64,000 bases of DNA from contig NZ_CP053348.1 in NCBI RefSeq assembly GCF_013394595.1, positions 124,001 through 188,000 on the forward strand, written 5' to 3'. Of the stretch, positions 31,953-34,461 are shown in pieces. Below the pieces are notes generated by a model. It worked only from the letters and a program-made list of their open reading frames with translations, was not told the DNA's origin and searched no databases. Position 1 is the first letter of the stretch. Each line of letters starts with the position of its first letter. Source of the stretch: Winogradskyella forsetii. Lineage in GTDB: Bacteria; Bacteroidota; Bacteroidia; Flavobacteriales; Flavobacteriaceae. A program made the translations under genes and the position numbers.

Positions 31953-31960
31953 TTCATAAT

Positions 31961-32054
31961 TGTCATTGCGAGGACGAAGGACGTGGCAATCTTTTAAAAT
32001 GTAACTCAAATTAAACAGATTGCCTCGTCGCTAAAAAGCAGCTCAAAATGATAT
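31961..32054. repeat. Inverted pair of TCATTGCGAGG-type repeats
   Basis: TCATTGCGAGGACGAAGGAC then GTGGCAATC on the left is matched in reverse on the right by GATTGCCTCGTCGCTAAAAA then GCAGCTCAAAATGATA. Both halves resemble a widespread Bacteroidota intergenic repeat, arranged head to head over about 95 bases directly after the OmpA lipoprotein gene. Confidence 0.65.
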
Positions 32055-32069
32055 ATTAACAAATATTTA

Positions 32070-32100
32070 GACCTCACAGGTTACAAAAACCTGTGAGGTC
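32070..32100. repeat. Perfect hairpin GACCTCACAGGTT/AACCTGTGAGGTC
   Basis: A 13-base perfect stem (32070-32082 with 32088-32100) with a five-base loop, followed by TTCTT. It may end transcription of the OmpA gene. A decayed copy is at 13396-13425, so this is also a repeat family. Confidence 0.75.
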
Positions 32101-32136
32101 TTCTTATATTTATGCTTTTAAGTTAAACTAAAATGA

Positions 32137-32184
32137 TCCCGAAACTTCGGGACTGCTTTCCTGTCTACCGACAGGCAGGCGCAG
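32137..32184. repeat. Two adjacent small hairpins upstream of tas
   Basis: TCCCGAA-AC-TTCGGGA (32137-32152) is followed after seven bases by CCTGTC-TACC-GACAGG and CAGGC (32160-32180). Both resemble known flavobacterial repeat hairpins. They lie directly upstream of the tas ATG (32193); an upstream in-frame ATG at 32133 would translate through them and is not the likely start. Confidence 0.65.
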
Positions 32185-32192
32185 GAAATAGT

Positions 32193-33230
32193 ATGAAATA
32201 CACAACACTACCAAACACAGCTATAAAAGTCAGTAAAATATGTCTTGGCACCATGACTTGGGGCAATCAAAATACCCAAGATGAAGGTTTTGCCCAAATG
32301 GATTATGCTTTAGACAAAGGCGTTAATTTCTTCGATTGTGCAGAACTATATCCTGTGCCAGCCACAGCAGAAACTTATGCGGAAACCGAACGCATCATAG
32401 GAAATTGGTTCGCTAAAACAGGAAACAGAGACAACGTGGTTTTGGCTACAAAAATTGCAGGTCCTGGAGACTATACAGCACATATTAGAACCAATGGTTT
32501 TAGTAAAGCAGCACTAAACGAAGCGGTCAATAATAGTTTAAAACGATTACAAACCGATTATATTGATTTGTACCAACTGCATTGGCCAGAACGTGATACC
32601 AACACTTTTGGAACGCGAGATTATAAACCTAATCCAAGTGATGAATGGGAAGATAATTTTAACGAAATCCTTCATAATCTAGATGACATTATAAAATCTG
32701 GAAAAATAAGACATGTCGGAATTTCTAACGAAAAAGCTTGGGGAACCATGCGTTATTTGGATGAGTCCAAAAAACAGGATTTACCACGAATGATTACCAT
32801 TCAAAATGCGTACTCTTTAATAAATCGTGTTTTTGAAGGTGATTTGGCAGAAATTGCCCATAGAGAAAATATTGGGTTATTAGCTTATTCGCCAATGGCT
32901 TTTGGTGTGCTATCTGGCAAATACATTAAAGGTAAGGATGACCAGAATTCAAGATTAAATATGTTTCCAAGATTTGCACGTTACAGTAGCGAACAAGCTA
33001 CCGAAGCTGCCAAACGCTATCTTAAAATAGCAGAAGCTAATGAAATGTCTTTAGCACAAATGGCATTAGCCTTTGTAAACGAAAGACCATTTGTAACCAG
33101 TAATATTATCGGAGCCACAAGTATTGATCAGTTAAAGGAAAATATTGATAGTATTAATCTGTCGCTATCAGAAGAAGTTATAAAAGCGATTAACGAAGTT
33201 CATGCTGAAATACCAAATCCCGCGCCATAA
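32193..33230 (+). CDS. tas: Aldo/keto reductase, Tas type
   Basis: NADPH-dependent aldo/keto reductase of about 345 residues. It follows the E. coli Tas pattern closely: KYTTLPNTAIKVSKICLGTM (2-21), the catalytic Asp/Tyr block FFDCAELYPVPA (about 47-58), Lys in ATKIAGPG (about 89), the conserved His of LYQLHWPERDTNTFG, and NAYSLINRVFEGDLAEI. ATG 32193 is chosen because the family begins MKYTTLP and the upstream in-frame codons are repeat sequence. The physiological substrate is unknown; E. coli Tas was found through suppression of tyrosine starvation. Confidence 0.93.
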   Translation: MKYTTLPNTAIKVSKICLGTMTWGNQNTQDEGFAQMDYALDKGVNFFDCAELYPVPATAETYAETERIIGNWFAKTGNRDNVVLATKIAGPGDYTAHIRTNGFSKAALNEAVNNSLKRLQTDYIDLYQLHWPERDTNTFGTRDYKPNPSDEWEDNFNEILHNLDDIIKSGKIRHVGISNEKAWGTMRYLDESKKQDLPRMITIQNAYSLINRVFEGDLAEIAHRENIGLLAYSPMAFGVLSGKYIKGKDDQNSRLNMFPRFARYSSEQATEAAKRYLKIAEANEMSLAQMALAFVNERPFVTSNIIGATSIDQLKENIDSINLSLSEEVIKAINEVHAEIPNPAP

Positions 33231-33238
33231 TCCAACAA

Positions 33239-33287
33239 GTTAGCACTCGTCTCCGAGTTAGCGCTCGTCGCAGACGAGTGCTTTTTT
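33239..33287. repeat. REP element pair upstream of the transposase (also terminator-like)
   Basis: A truncated unit GTTAGCACTCGTCTCC (33239-33254) is followed by a complete unit (33257-33281): head GTTA, stem GCGCTCGTC, loop GCA, stem GACGAGTGC, then a T6 run. It lies nine bases after the tas stop and can act as its terminator. The same head and stem recur downstream of the transposase. Confidence 0.8.
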
Positions 33288-33326
33288 AAAAATAAAATTT
33301 CTTCAAAAATTTGTATCTTACTCTAA

Positions 33327-33884
33327 ATGAGCAGAAAATACAAATTCCATAATAAGTCCGGTTTATACTTCGTGTCATTTGCTGTAGTTTATTGGGTAGA
33401 TGTATTTACAAGAGAATGCTATTTCAAAGTTTTAGCAGATAGTATCAGCTACTGCAGAAAAGCAAAAGGTATGGAATTGTATGCGTATTGTTTTATGTCC
33501 AACCATGTGCATTTCATATTTCGTTCTTCTGAAGATAAACCCATGGAATTATTAAGGGATTATAAAAAATTCACAGCCAATAAAATTATTGAGACCATTG
33601 AAAATAATTCGAAGGAAAGCCGAAAAAAATGGTTGTTGTCCATGTTTATGAAAGCAGGTAAAGAAAGAAGTAATGTGACTAAGTATCAGTTTTGGCAACA
33701 TAATAATCATCCTATTGAATTATGGAGTATAGATGTTATTAAACGATATATCAATTACATTCATAATAATCCTGTTAAAGCTGGATTTGTAGTCAATCCT
33801 ACTGATTGGAAATATTCTAGTGCTCGGAATTTTCAGGATGACCATTCGGTTTTGGAGATTGATGATGCTGGGTTTCTTGGTTAA
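33327..33884 (+). mobile_element. REP-associated tyrosine transposase (RAYT, Y1/IS200-like)
   Basis: A single-strand DNA transposase of the HUH superfamily, 185 residues. The metal-binding HUH motif is SNHVHFIF (His 60 and 62). The C-terminal block YIHNNPVKAGFV is typical of Bacteroidota members. The catalytic Tyr lies after the HUH motif, but I cannot assign it with confidence; candidates are Tyr 79 and the Tyr of KYQFWQH. The gene is intact and is flanked on both sides by hairpins sharing GTTAG and GCGCTCGTC/GACGAGTGC, exactly as expected for a RAYT and its REP substrates. RAYTs usually mobilise small REPs and stay fixed themselves. Confidence 0.9.
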
Positions 33885-33895
33885 ATATATTAAAC

Positions 33896-33911
33896 ATTCG
33901 TTGCAACGAAT
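33896..33911. repeat. Perfect 16-base palindrome after the transposase
   Basis: ATTCGTTGCAACGAAT, 12 bases past the transposase stop and ten bases before the downstream REP pair. It could be part of the element end. Confidence 0.5.
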
Positions 33912-33920
33912 AGTTTAAAA

Positions 33921-33987
33921 AGCACTCGTCGGAGACGAGCGCCAACATTTACGAGTTAGCGCTCGTCTCCGACGAGTGCTTTTTTTC
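33921..33987. repeat. Head-to-head REP pair (BIME-like) downstream of the transposase
   Basis: The left unit (33921-33946) and right unit (33955-33980) are inverted relative to one another. Each has stem GCGCTCGTC, loop TCC, GACGAGTGC, with heads GTTG and GTTA facing each other across eight bases. A T7 run follows, so the pair can also terminate the leftward or rightward neighbours. Confidence 0.85.
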
Positions 33988-33990
33988 TAA

Positions 33991-34461
33991 TTATATCTTA
34001 ATCTGTCGATTAATCTGTTCCTGCAAAGAAATGAAAGTTTCTGTCCTCGATACACCTTTTATACTTTGGATTTCAGAATTAAGCACATGCATTAAATGCT
34101 CATTATCTTTCGATAGAATTTTAATAAAGATGGACCAATTTCCTGTGGTATAATGACATTCAATCACTTCAGGGATTTTTTGTAATTGCTTTACGGCTTC
34201 AGGATTACTTATGGCTTTATCAAGAAAAATACCAACAAAAGCCATGGTGGTATAGCCTAAGATTTTTGGGTTGATTATAAATTTTGAACCTGCTAAAAGT
34301 CCGGATTTTTCTAATTTCTTTAAACGTTGATGAATCGCAGCACCCGAAATTCCGACGTTACGGGCGATTTCAAGAATTGGTGTTCTTGCATCTTCCATTA
34401 ATGCACGAAGAATCTTTTTATCTATACCATCGATGTAAATACCTTTGTCATTAACTTTCAT
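33991..34461 (-). CDS. Lrp/AsnC-family transcriptional regulator
   Basis: A 156-residue regulator with an N-terminal winged helix-turn-helix (IDGIDKKILRALMEDARTPI, then EIARNVGISGAAIHQRLKKL, about 12-55) and a C-terminal RAM/AsnC ligand domain (about 70-150) with VIECHYTTGNWSIFIKI. Such proteins sense amino acids and act as octamers. The next leftward genes upstream are a lipoprotein and saccharopine dehydrogenase, an amino-acid enzyme, but a regulatory link is only inference. Confidence 0.93.
   Translation of the reverse strand: MKVNDKGIYIDGIDKKILRALMEDARTPILEIARNVGISGAAIHQRLKKLEKSGLLAGSKFIINPKILGYTTMAFVGIFLDKAISNPEAVKQLQKIPEVIECHYTTGNWSIFIKILSKDNEHLMHVLNSEIQSIKGVSRTETFISLQEQINRQIKI

Follow-up and report, generated by a model that had tools for sequence, protein, structure and literature searches.

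A complete transposase gene nested between hairpins in the genome of Winogradskyella forsetii (4.51 Mb, one contig) raises the question of whether these hairpins are the cognate REPs of a REP-associated tyrosine transposase (RAYT) and, if so, whether gene and hairpins move together as a unit. We analyzed the locus within a 64-kb stretch of contig NZ_CP053348.1, referred to here as the window, and compared it with genomes of the same genus and family. We consider it highly likely that the locus is a low-copy REP–RAYT–REP unit belonging to TnpA_REP subclass 2.6 of Bacteroidota, with the strand-specific action proposed below.

The transposase and its hairpins in the window

The unit occupies positions 33239-33987, between convergent genes for an aldo/keto reductase and an AsnC/Lrp-type regulator (Table 1). 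The original prediction described an intact 185-residue HUH transposase with His60 and His62, a truncated and a whole hairpin unit upstream, a head-to-head pair downstream, loops that differ between the two sides, and a 16-base palindrome at 33896, and all of these features are present; Tyr144 is the candidate catalytic residue. The stem was said to recur nowhere else in the window, and with up to three mismatches allowed over 64 kb its pattern occurs only at the three whole units, with no occurrence in 100 shuffles. The head given as GTTAG/GTTGG is correct as a local form, but the wider foot is GYTR, mostly GCTA, and not the canonical GTAG. The description of the stem holds for the three whole units, to which we add a G·T mismatch at pair 3 in all three that had gone unmentioned and that reads A·C on the other strand. 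The hairpins lie outside genes and carry a 5′ guide tetranucleotide, GTTA or GTTG, at the stem, as is characteristic of extragenic REPs. The palindrome after the RAYT gene has a counterpart at the same position in the diverged copy L012 (ATTCGTCGTAGACGAAT). No extra hairpin was found between the upstream REP and the RAYT start in the window unit; one is present in L029, L020, L024, L034 and L156, where it could shield the gene against read-through.

Table 1 Coordinates of the unit and its neighbors in the window.
Feature	Position	Strand	Remarks
Truncated REP unit, 18 nt	33239..33256	+	Sequence GTTAGCACTCGTCTCCGA; partial tandem copy
Upstream whole REP	33257..33281	+	Foot GTTA 33257-33260
Upstream whole REP stem	33261-33269/33273-33281	+	G·T at pair 3, loop GCA
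T6 run	33282-33287	+	Directly after upstream whole REP
RAYT ORF (TnpA_REP subclass 2.6 signature), 185 aa, intact	33327..33884	+	
RAYT key residues	H60, H62, W123-Q124, Y144, S164-S165	+	NHVH = 59-62; YIHNNP from 144
16-nt palindrome	33896..33911	strand-neutral	Sequence ATTCGTTGCAACGAAT
A-run	33917-33921		T-run on - strand, by first downstream REP
First downstream REP	33922..33946	-	Head outward, foot GTTG on - strand, loop TCC
Linker of head-to-head REP pair	33947..33954	strand-neutral	
Second downstream REP	33955..33979	+	Foot GTTA, loop TCC, then T-run; head-to-head with 33922-33946 REP
Aldo/keto reductase gene	32133..33230	+	End 8 bp before unit
AsnC/Lrp-type regulator gene	33991..34461	-	Convergent; stop 11 bp past last stem

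Both sequence and fold bear out the identification of the protein as a RAYT. It scores 85 bits with NCBIfam NF047646 (REP-associated tyrosine transposase, REP_Tyr_transpos; cut-off 80) and 30.7 bits with Pfam Y1_Tnp. The best solved fold for its AlphaFold2 model (mean pLDDT 90.7) is 4er8, a REP-associated tyrosine transposase in complex with a REP hairpin (E 8.8e-9, TM 0.66/0.73, 19% identity), with ISDra2, IS608 and other IS200-type transposases ranked below it, and 4er8 is also the only match in the PDB by sequence, where it is weak. In an alignment of 43 proteins (the window protein and 42 of 80 loci from genome contigs), the invariant columns include H60, H62, W123, Q124, Y144, N148, P149, S164 and S165. 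The Y1_Tnp domain, together with the copying of whole units with defined ends in relatives that is described below, could instead indicate a classical IS200/IS605 insertion sequence. However, NCBIfam IS200 model NF033573 gives only 24.2 bits against a cut-off of 55, which places the protein outside the TnpA_IS200 family, while the RAYT model passes; moreover, IS200/IS605 ends are recognized on one strand, in keeping with the accessible text of PMC6006769 and PMC8266576, whereas the REPs at the two ends of the unit are inverted. We regard this origin as very unlikely.

Among RAYTs, the window protein fits the signature of TnpA_REP subclass 2.6, which corresponds to RAYT group 5 of Bertels and is mostly found in Bacteroidetes. 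In the accessible text of its description, this subclass is characterized by the motifs NH[LIV]H, WQ, YIH[QN]NP and SS, an HuH-Y distance of ~82 aa and a length of ~179, and its flanking structures are atypical and weaker, lack GT[AG]G, and recur at other places in the genome (Quentin et al, 2018; PMC6006769). The window protein contains all four motifs in 185 aa, and is flanked by structures whose foot is GYTR rather than GT[AG]G and whose stem has two further copies in the genome.

Hairpin design in the flanks of related RAYTs

At the level of sequence, the flanks of 100 RAYT copies are described by one design, with a GYTR foot, a 9-bp stem [GC]CGC-N5/N5′-GTG[GC], a loop mostly of 3 nt, a G·T that is nearly fixed at pair 3, and an inner arm that covaries. 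The flanks of 90 loci and L006 were read, and the repeat unit emerged when upstream flanks were set against downstream flanks in reversed orientation; a scan of the RAYT flanks for perfect stems was rejected because it missed units owing to the stem mismatch. At least one unit lies within 300 bp of the RAYT in 80 of the 100 copies, a set that still holds one edge duplicate (L044/L051; 99 copies without L044), with units on both sides in 47, upstream only in 27, downstream only in 6, and none in 20. These 157 units have the head outward in 137 cases and an exact G[CT]T[AG] foot in 119. One shuffle of each flank yielded no units, and the chance expectation from 20 shuffles of a 101-copy set that includes the duplicate is 0.35.

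The scan behind the count of 157 prescribes CGC…GTG. A scan for GC-rich 9-bp stems with a 3-nt loop and no prescribed mismatch position, in which the strands read G·T and A·C, placed the mismatch at pair 3 in 93 units and elsewhere in 10, with 5 fully paired. Pair counts from units selected for pairing were set aside as proof of covariation. Among units picked by foot, CGC and GTG alone, all five inner pairs are complementary in 82 of 98 with the duplicate removed (85 of 101 with it), compared with 10.2 of 101 on random re-pairing of the arms, and 20 of 35 distinct arm pairs are fully complementary (duplicate included in both of these sets). Folding with DNA parameters gives -9.0 for the GTTA strand and -7.0 for its complement, making the former 2 kcal/mol more stable. 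Beyond the family, a scan allowing the mismatch anywhere, with the register assigned by eye, found outward units with a mismatch in the pair-3 register at 9 of 14 loci, from Pontibacter, Fulvivirga, a Sphingobacteriaceae MAG, and two Bacteroidetes MAGs. The same scan found inward units only at L244 and L248 and no unit at L249, L253 and L254; the covariance model introduced below matches somewhere within these last three as well. Thirteen weak Rfam matches, all below gathering scores and all over the long inverted pair, were taken as chance.

The inner arm tends to be the same in the hairpins on both sides of a RAYT. It is identical upstream and downstream in 28 of 44 RAYT copies with the duplicate removed (29 of 45 with it), where 3.6 are expected and 2000 shuffles reached at most 11. 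On a maximum-likelihood tree of 56 RAYTs, which includes the L044/L051 duplicate and on which near-copies help clustering, the six commonest arms require 10 changes compared with 18.7 when shuffled, a value as low being found in 0 of 200 shuffles; considered one at a time, neither the TCGTC nor the TCGTT arm clusters on this tree. The second RAYT of the host genome (2073557) has its own units, with a different arm and the same design. The downstream REP of that gene (L006:2002-2022, host ~2074130) lies inside the 3′ end of its coding frame.

An alternative explanation would be that the hairpins are ordinary intrinsic terminators of the convergent genes and the RAYT, with an incidental likeness to REPs. 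In the window, each of the three whole units is indeed a GC-rich hairpin followed by a T-run, three terminator-like sites lie in 33000-34200 where 0.4 are expected, and inspection by eye shows other terminator-like hairpins at this place in some relatives in which the site is empty. However, T-rich tails occur in only 11 of the 139 outward units of RAYT flanks, window included, and therefore are a local add-on that does not extend to the REP family in general. Terminators are not characterized by a foot, a fixed mismatch, RAYT-specific arms, or outward orientation, and neither stem nor design is present at any of the 18 relatives' sites inspected. It is improbable that terminators alone are what the locus contains. 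Conservation, orientation, common arm sequence, and the genome-level association described below instead identify the hairpins as cognate REPs, as originally proposed, and those in the window, with their T tails, possibly double as terminators for the neighboring genes. The earlier observation is thus confirmed, and its interpretation as a REP–RAYT is supported.

Copies in the family, the host genome, and the sister species

RAYT matches, fragments included, occur in 115 of 397 genomes of the host's family. A covariance model built from 67 units and run on the same genomes has a match in 106 of the 115 RAYT-positive genomes (none in the other 9) and in 81 of the 282 RAYT-negative ones. Matches per genome average at least 6.6 in the former, with a median of 5, and 0.95 in the latter; up to 18 candidates were scored per genome, so that high counts are lower bounds. 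Six or more matches are found in 56 of 115 RAYT-positive and 15 of 282 RAYT-negative genomes, and the flanking units themselves make up part of the association, which is taken over all genomes irrespective of kinship. As a check on training bias in the model, 35 RAYT-positive genomes with no locus in the unit set were considered separately, and 32 of these have a match, with a mean of at least 5.9. Eight or more matches occur in 11 RAYT-negative genomes, of which six contain RAYT fragments or weak distant matches and five have none at E ≤0.001; REPs that outlast their RAYT would be expected to leave such genomes, although this agreement does not prove it. With a plain pattern (CTA foot, TGY loop), 214 matches fall in 84 of the 397 genomes, compared with 47 in 42 genomes when the pattern is reversed as a control; the plain pattern has no match in the host genome, where the feet differ. 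Among 60 genomes of the genus, a RAYT match is present in 7 and a model match (E ≤1) in 17, so that several members have model matches but no RAYT match. The original prediction had named equal abundance in relatives that lack the transposase as evidence against it, and the hairpins are not equally abundant there. The solo REPs of L126 (G428) and L134 (G414) are followed by ~90 bp of nearly identical sequence, and may belong to a larger repeated or orthologous piece.

A complete lack of other genomic copies would likewise have counted against the prediction, and in the host genome further copies exist, though few. Beyond the window, the stem pattern is matched exactly at 3913316 and with one mismatch at 3227888, and a weak match with two mismatches lies at 2989285. 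The hairpins of the host number three in the window, one beside a decayed derivative, one solo, and three at the second RAYT. With 5 stem copies and one weak match in 4.5 Mb, the high copy number usual for REPs is not reached; the label is right for the type of hairpin, but copy number is so low that "repetitive" barely applies. The copy at 3913316 is located at the end of a RAYT relic that is decayed, lacks the middle of the gene, matches window positions 33292-33439 (84%) and 33838-33945 (83%), and has a palindrome where the window has its extra one; no left REP was seen beside it. The relic represents an older derivative with an internal deletion.

Individual host loci were also inspected. 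L012 was rejected as a clean insertion because the sister species lacks a match to the left part of this locus as well, so that the boundaries of the locus cannot be fixed. The solo REP at 3227888 (L013) has a GCTA foot and a TGT loop, both common in other genera, and lies near a frame that by eye resembles a tyrosine recombinase. At L008:346-1869 (host 4390485-4393814), a Y1_Tnp-like frame (NHYH, YIHLNP) is fused in frame to coproporphyrinogen III oxidase, forming one open frame of 508 aa that runs through the palindrome CTGCAAGGTTTTCAAAACCTTGTAG into the full oxidase; only Coprogen_oxidas is found in Pfam at E ≤1e-5 for the whole frame, with the Y1 part listed in the genome scan. A plasmid search gave one weak partial match.

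When the whole region was searched against the 60 genus genomes, only that of a sister species (G429) matched through the unit at this site. The neighboring genes lie ≤64 bp apart on one contig in 18 genomes and ~510 bp apart in two more, and the stretch after the reductase gene, read at 18 loci of which 12 reach the regulator, contains neither stem nor design in any of them. A base-exact insertion point could not be assigned, as the sequence between the two genes is too different in relatives with an empty site. The unit was probably inserted between the convergent genes before the split of the species from its sister, and has probably been single-copy since. In G429 there is a single upstream unit, compared with one and a half in the window, the linker and feet of the downstream pair are the reverse complement of those in the window, and the right hairpin is decayed. 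The inversion of the linker is the expected trace either of cutting and rejoining or of a template switch at inverted hairpins. A REP-like hairpin also lies just after an OmpA-family gene in G429, where the window (31953-32132) has a different sequence.

Comparison of the two RAYTs to codon 160 shows 3 nonsynonymous and 14 synonymous differences, giving a dN of 0.0077, a dS of 0.183, and a dN/dS of ~0.04, which indicates strong purifying selection. The G429 gene is frameshifted near codon 163, and the RAYT seems to have been lost lately in this species. The low dN/dS over these 160 codons, the single copy, the absence of C-run ends, and the few genomic hairpins would all suit full domestication, with the RAYT kept for a cell function on its hairpins and moving nothing in the host species at present. 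Against this reading, the frameshifted RAYT and decayed right hairpin of the sister show that the function is dispensable there, and whole units have moved in relatives. We treat full domestication as possible, if somewhat doubtful.

Movement of whole units and comparison with known systems

Five genomes contain whole REP–RAYT–REP units that are 94-99.9% identical, stand at unrelated sites, and end at C/G runs by the REPs. Flavivirga jejuensis has three copies of a 742-747-bp unit (99.1-99.5%) on two contigs with unrelated flanks, in which the left limit of identity is the C-run CCCAGCTGG, ~20 nt ahead of the whole REP, and the right limit is GCTAGCGGGG. Copies in G123 are 665 bp long and 99.85% identical, with a further three of ~720 bp at 99.2-99.9%, and identities are 94% in G382, 96.4% in Flavivirga aquimarina, and 95.3% in G250; in these four genomes both copy ends fall at C/G runs or at the feet of REPs. 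Only one such end was found at loci G256, G010 and G258. Overall, copies of ≥88% over 300 bp were present in 10 of 18 comparisons and in none of the other 8. Where copies are neighbors, the intervening DNA is not spanned by any match of that size, which argues against tandem duplication of a longer piece.

Shorter elements also occur. G240, which is identical to the Flaviramulus stretch L208, has three identical 145-bp elements (REPINs) in different flanks and four more partial copies (78-85%) on two contigs. When the RAYT unit of the same genome is taken as reference, the element consists of the left unit end up to the start codon (84%, gapped) and the right end (34/34). This REPIN looks to have formed by internal deletion of a RAYT unit, and the host relic at 3913316 is of a similar kind. 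We lean slightly toward the view that subclass 2.6 units of Bacteroidota are IS-like transposons that are still active, with short C/G runs bordering their inverted REP ends and with REPINs as their internal-deletion derivatives (MITEs). Movement as a defined unit is seen in relatives, with defined ends, and not for the window unit, which has neither the C-run/G-run ends of mobile units nor a near-identical second copy, so that its present mobility is unsupported.

For the highly likely reading of the locus as a low-copy REP–RAYT–REP unit, we infer the following action. Most likely, the RAYT binds its cognate hairpin in the form of folded single-stranded DNA, and the GYTR foot together with the stem mismatch, which is G·T on the recognized strand and A·C on the other, would allow it to choose the correct strand. 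By analogy with the E. coli REP, the fixed G·T would be a mark of the strand that is read by the enzyme, and the difference in folding agrees weakly with this role. Tyr144 would then cut and rejoin the DNA near the foot, and the items moved may be solo REPs, paired REPs (REPINs) and, in subclass 2.6, the whole REP–RAYT–REP unit. The E. coli enzyme cuts single-stranded REP and needs both the foot and an unpaired position within the stem, whereas group 3 REPs have perfect stems and lose activity with a mismatch, as given in the accessible part of that work (PMC8266576). Only for E. coli-type (group 2) REPs is a stem mismatch known to be required, which counts against the proposed role.

With this design, the "atypical structures" of Bacteroidota RAYTs become a searchable and testable substrate, defined by foot, fixed G·T, and matching arm, and the results suggest that the stem-mismatch rule of E. 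coli holds with a different foot in a different phylum. Near-identical whole units with defined ends in named strains, such as Flavivirga jejuensis, provide material for studying the birth of REPINs and the way in which a transposase acting on single strands moves an element whose ends are inverted. If the units are living IS-like transposons, they would form a link between mobile IS200/IS605 and the domesticated, non-transposing REPtrons of Proteobacteria, and a Y1 enzyme could mobilize an element whose recognized hairpins lie on opposite strands.

REPINs are reportedly (Bertels and Rainey, in 2011) two inverted REPs that form a short element with several copies. The G240 element likewise consists of two inverted REPs in several copies, but is an internal-deletion derivative that includes the RAYT leader up to the start codon. 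The unit resembles the E. coli REPtron (group 2) in having an HUH-Y1 protein, REPs around the gene, a tetranucleotide foot, and a conserved stem mismatch. It differs in its foot (GYTR rather than GTAG), in its few copies, and in its mismatch, a single G·T near the stem base where E. coli has an AA/GC bulge in mid-stem. TIRtrons, in the accessible text of their description, also have a Y1 transposase with an inverted repeat on either side (Di Nocera et al, 2013; PMC3733652). The same text reports CGTC repeats in Bacteroidetes that have no dedicated transposase and carry a tag at one end, whereas here CGTC is merely part of one of 49 inner arms. In Chryseobacterium, RayT genes are reported near a resistance gene, and the available text of that report does not describe hairpins (PMC11194056). 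The window unit is not the first of its kind, as subclass 2.6 in Bacteroidetes is already in print, and PMC6006769 was the one source on this Bacteroidetes subclass found among open-access full texts. With the subclass described there, the unit shares its occurrence in Bacteroidetes, its motifs, a length of ~180 aa, an HuH-Y distance of ~82, and flanking structures in which GT[AG]G is absent and which have copies at other places in the genome (Quentin et al, 2018; PMC6006769). Compared with the published account, as far as its accessible text extends, the present analysis adds one covarying design with a fixed mismatch, together with evidence from copy number and from whole units.
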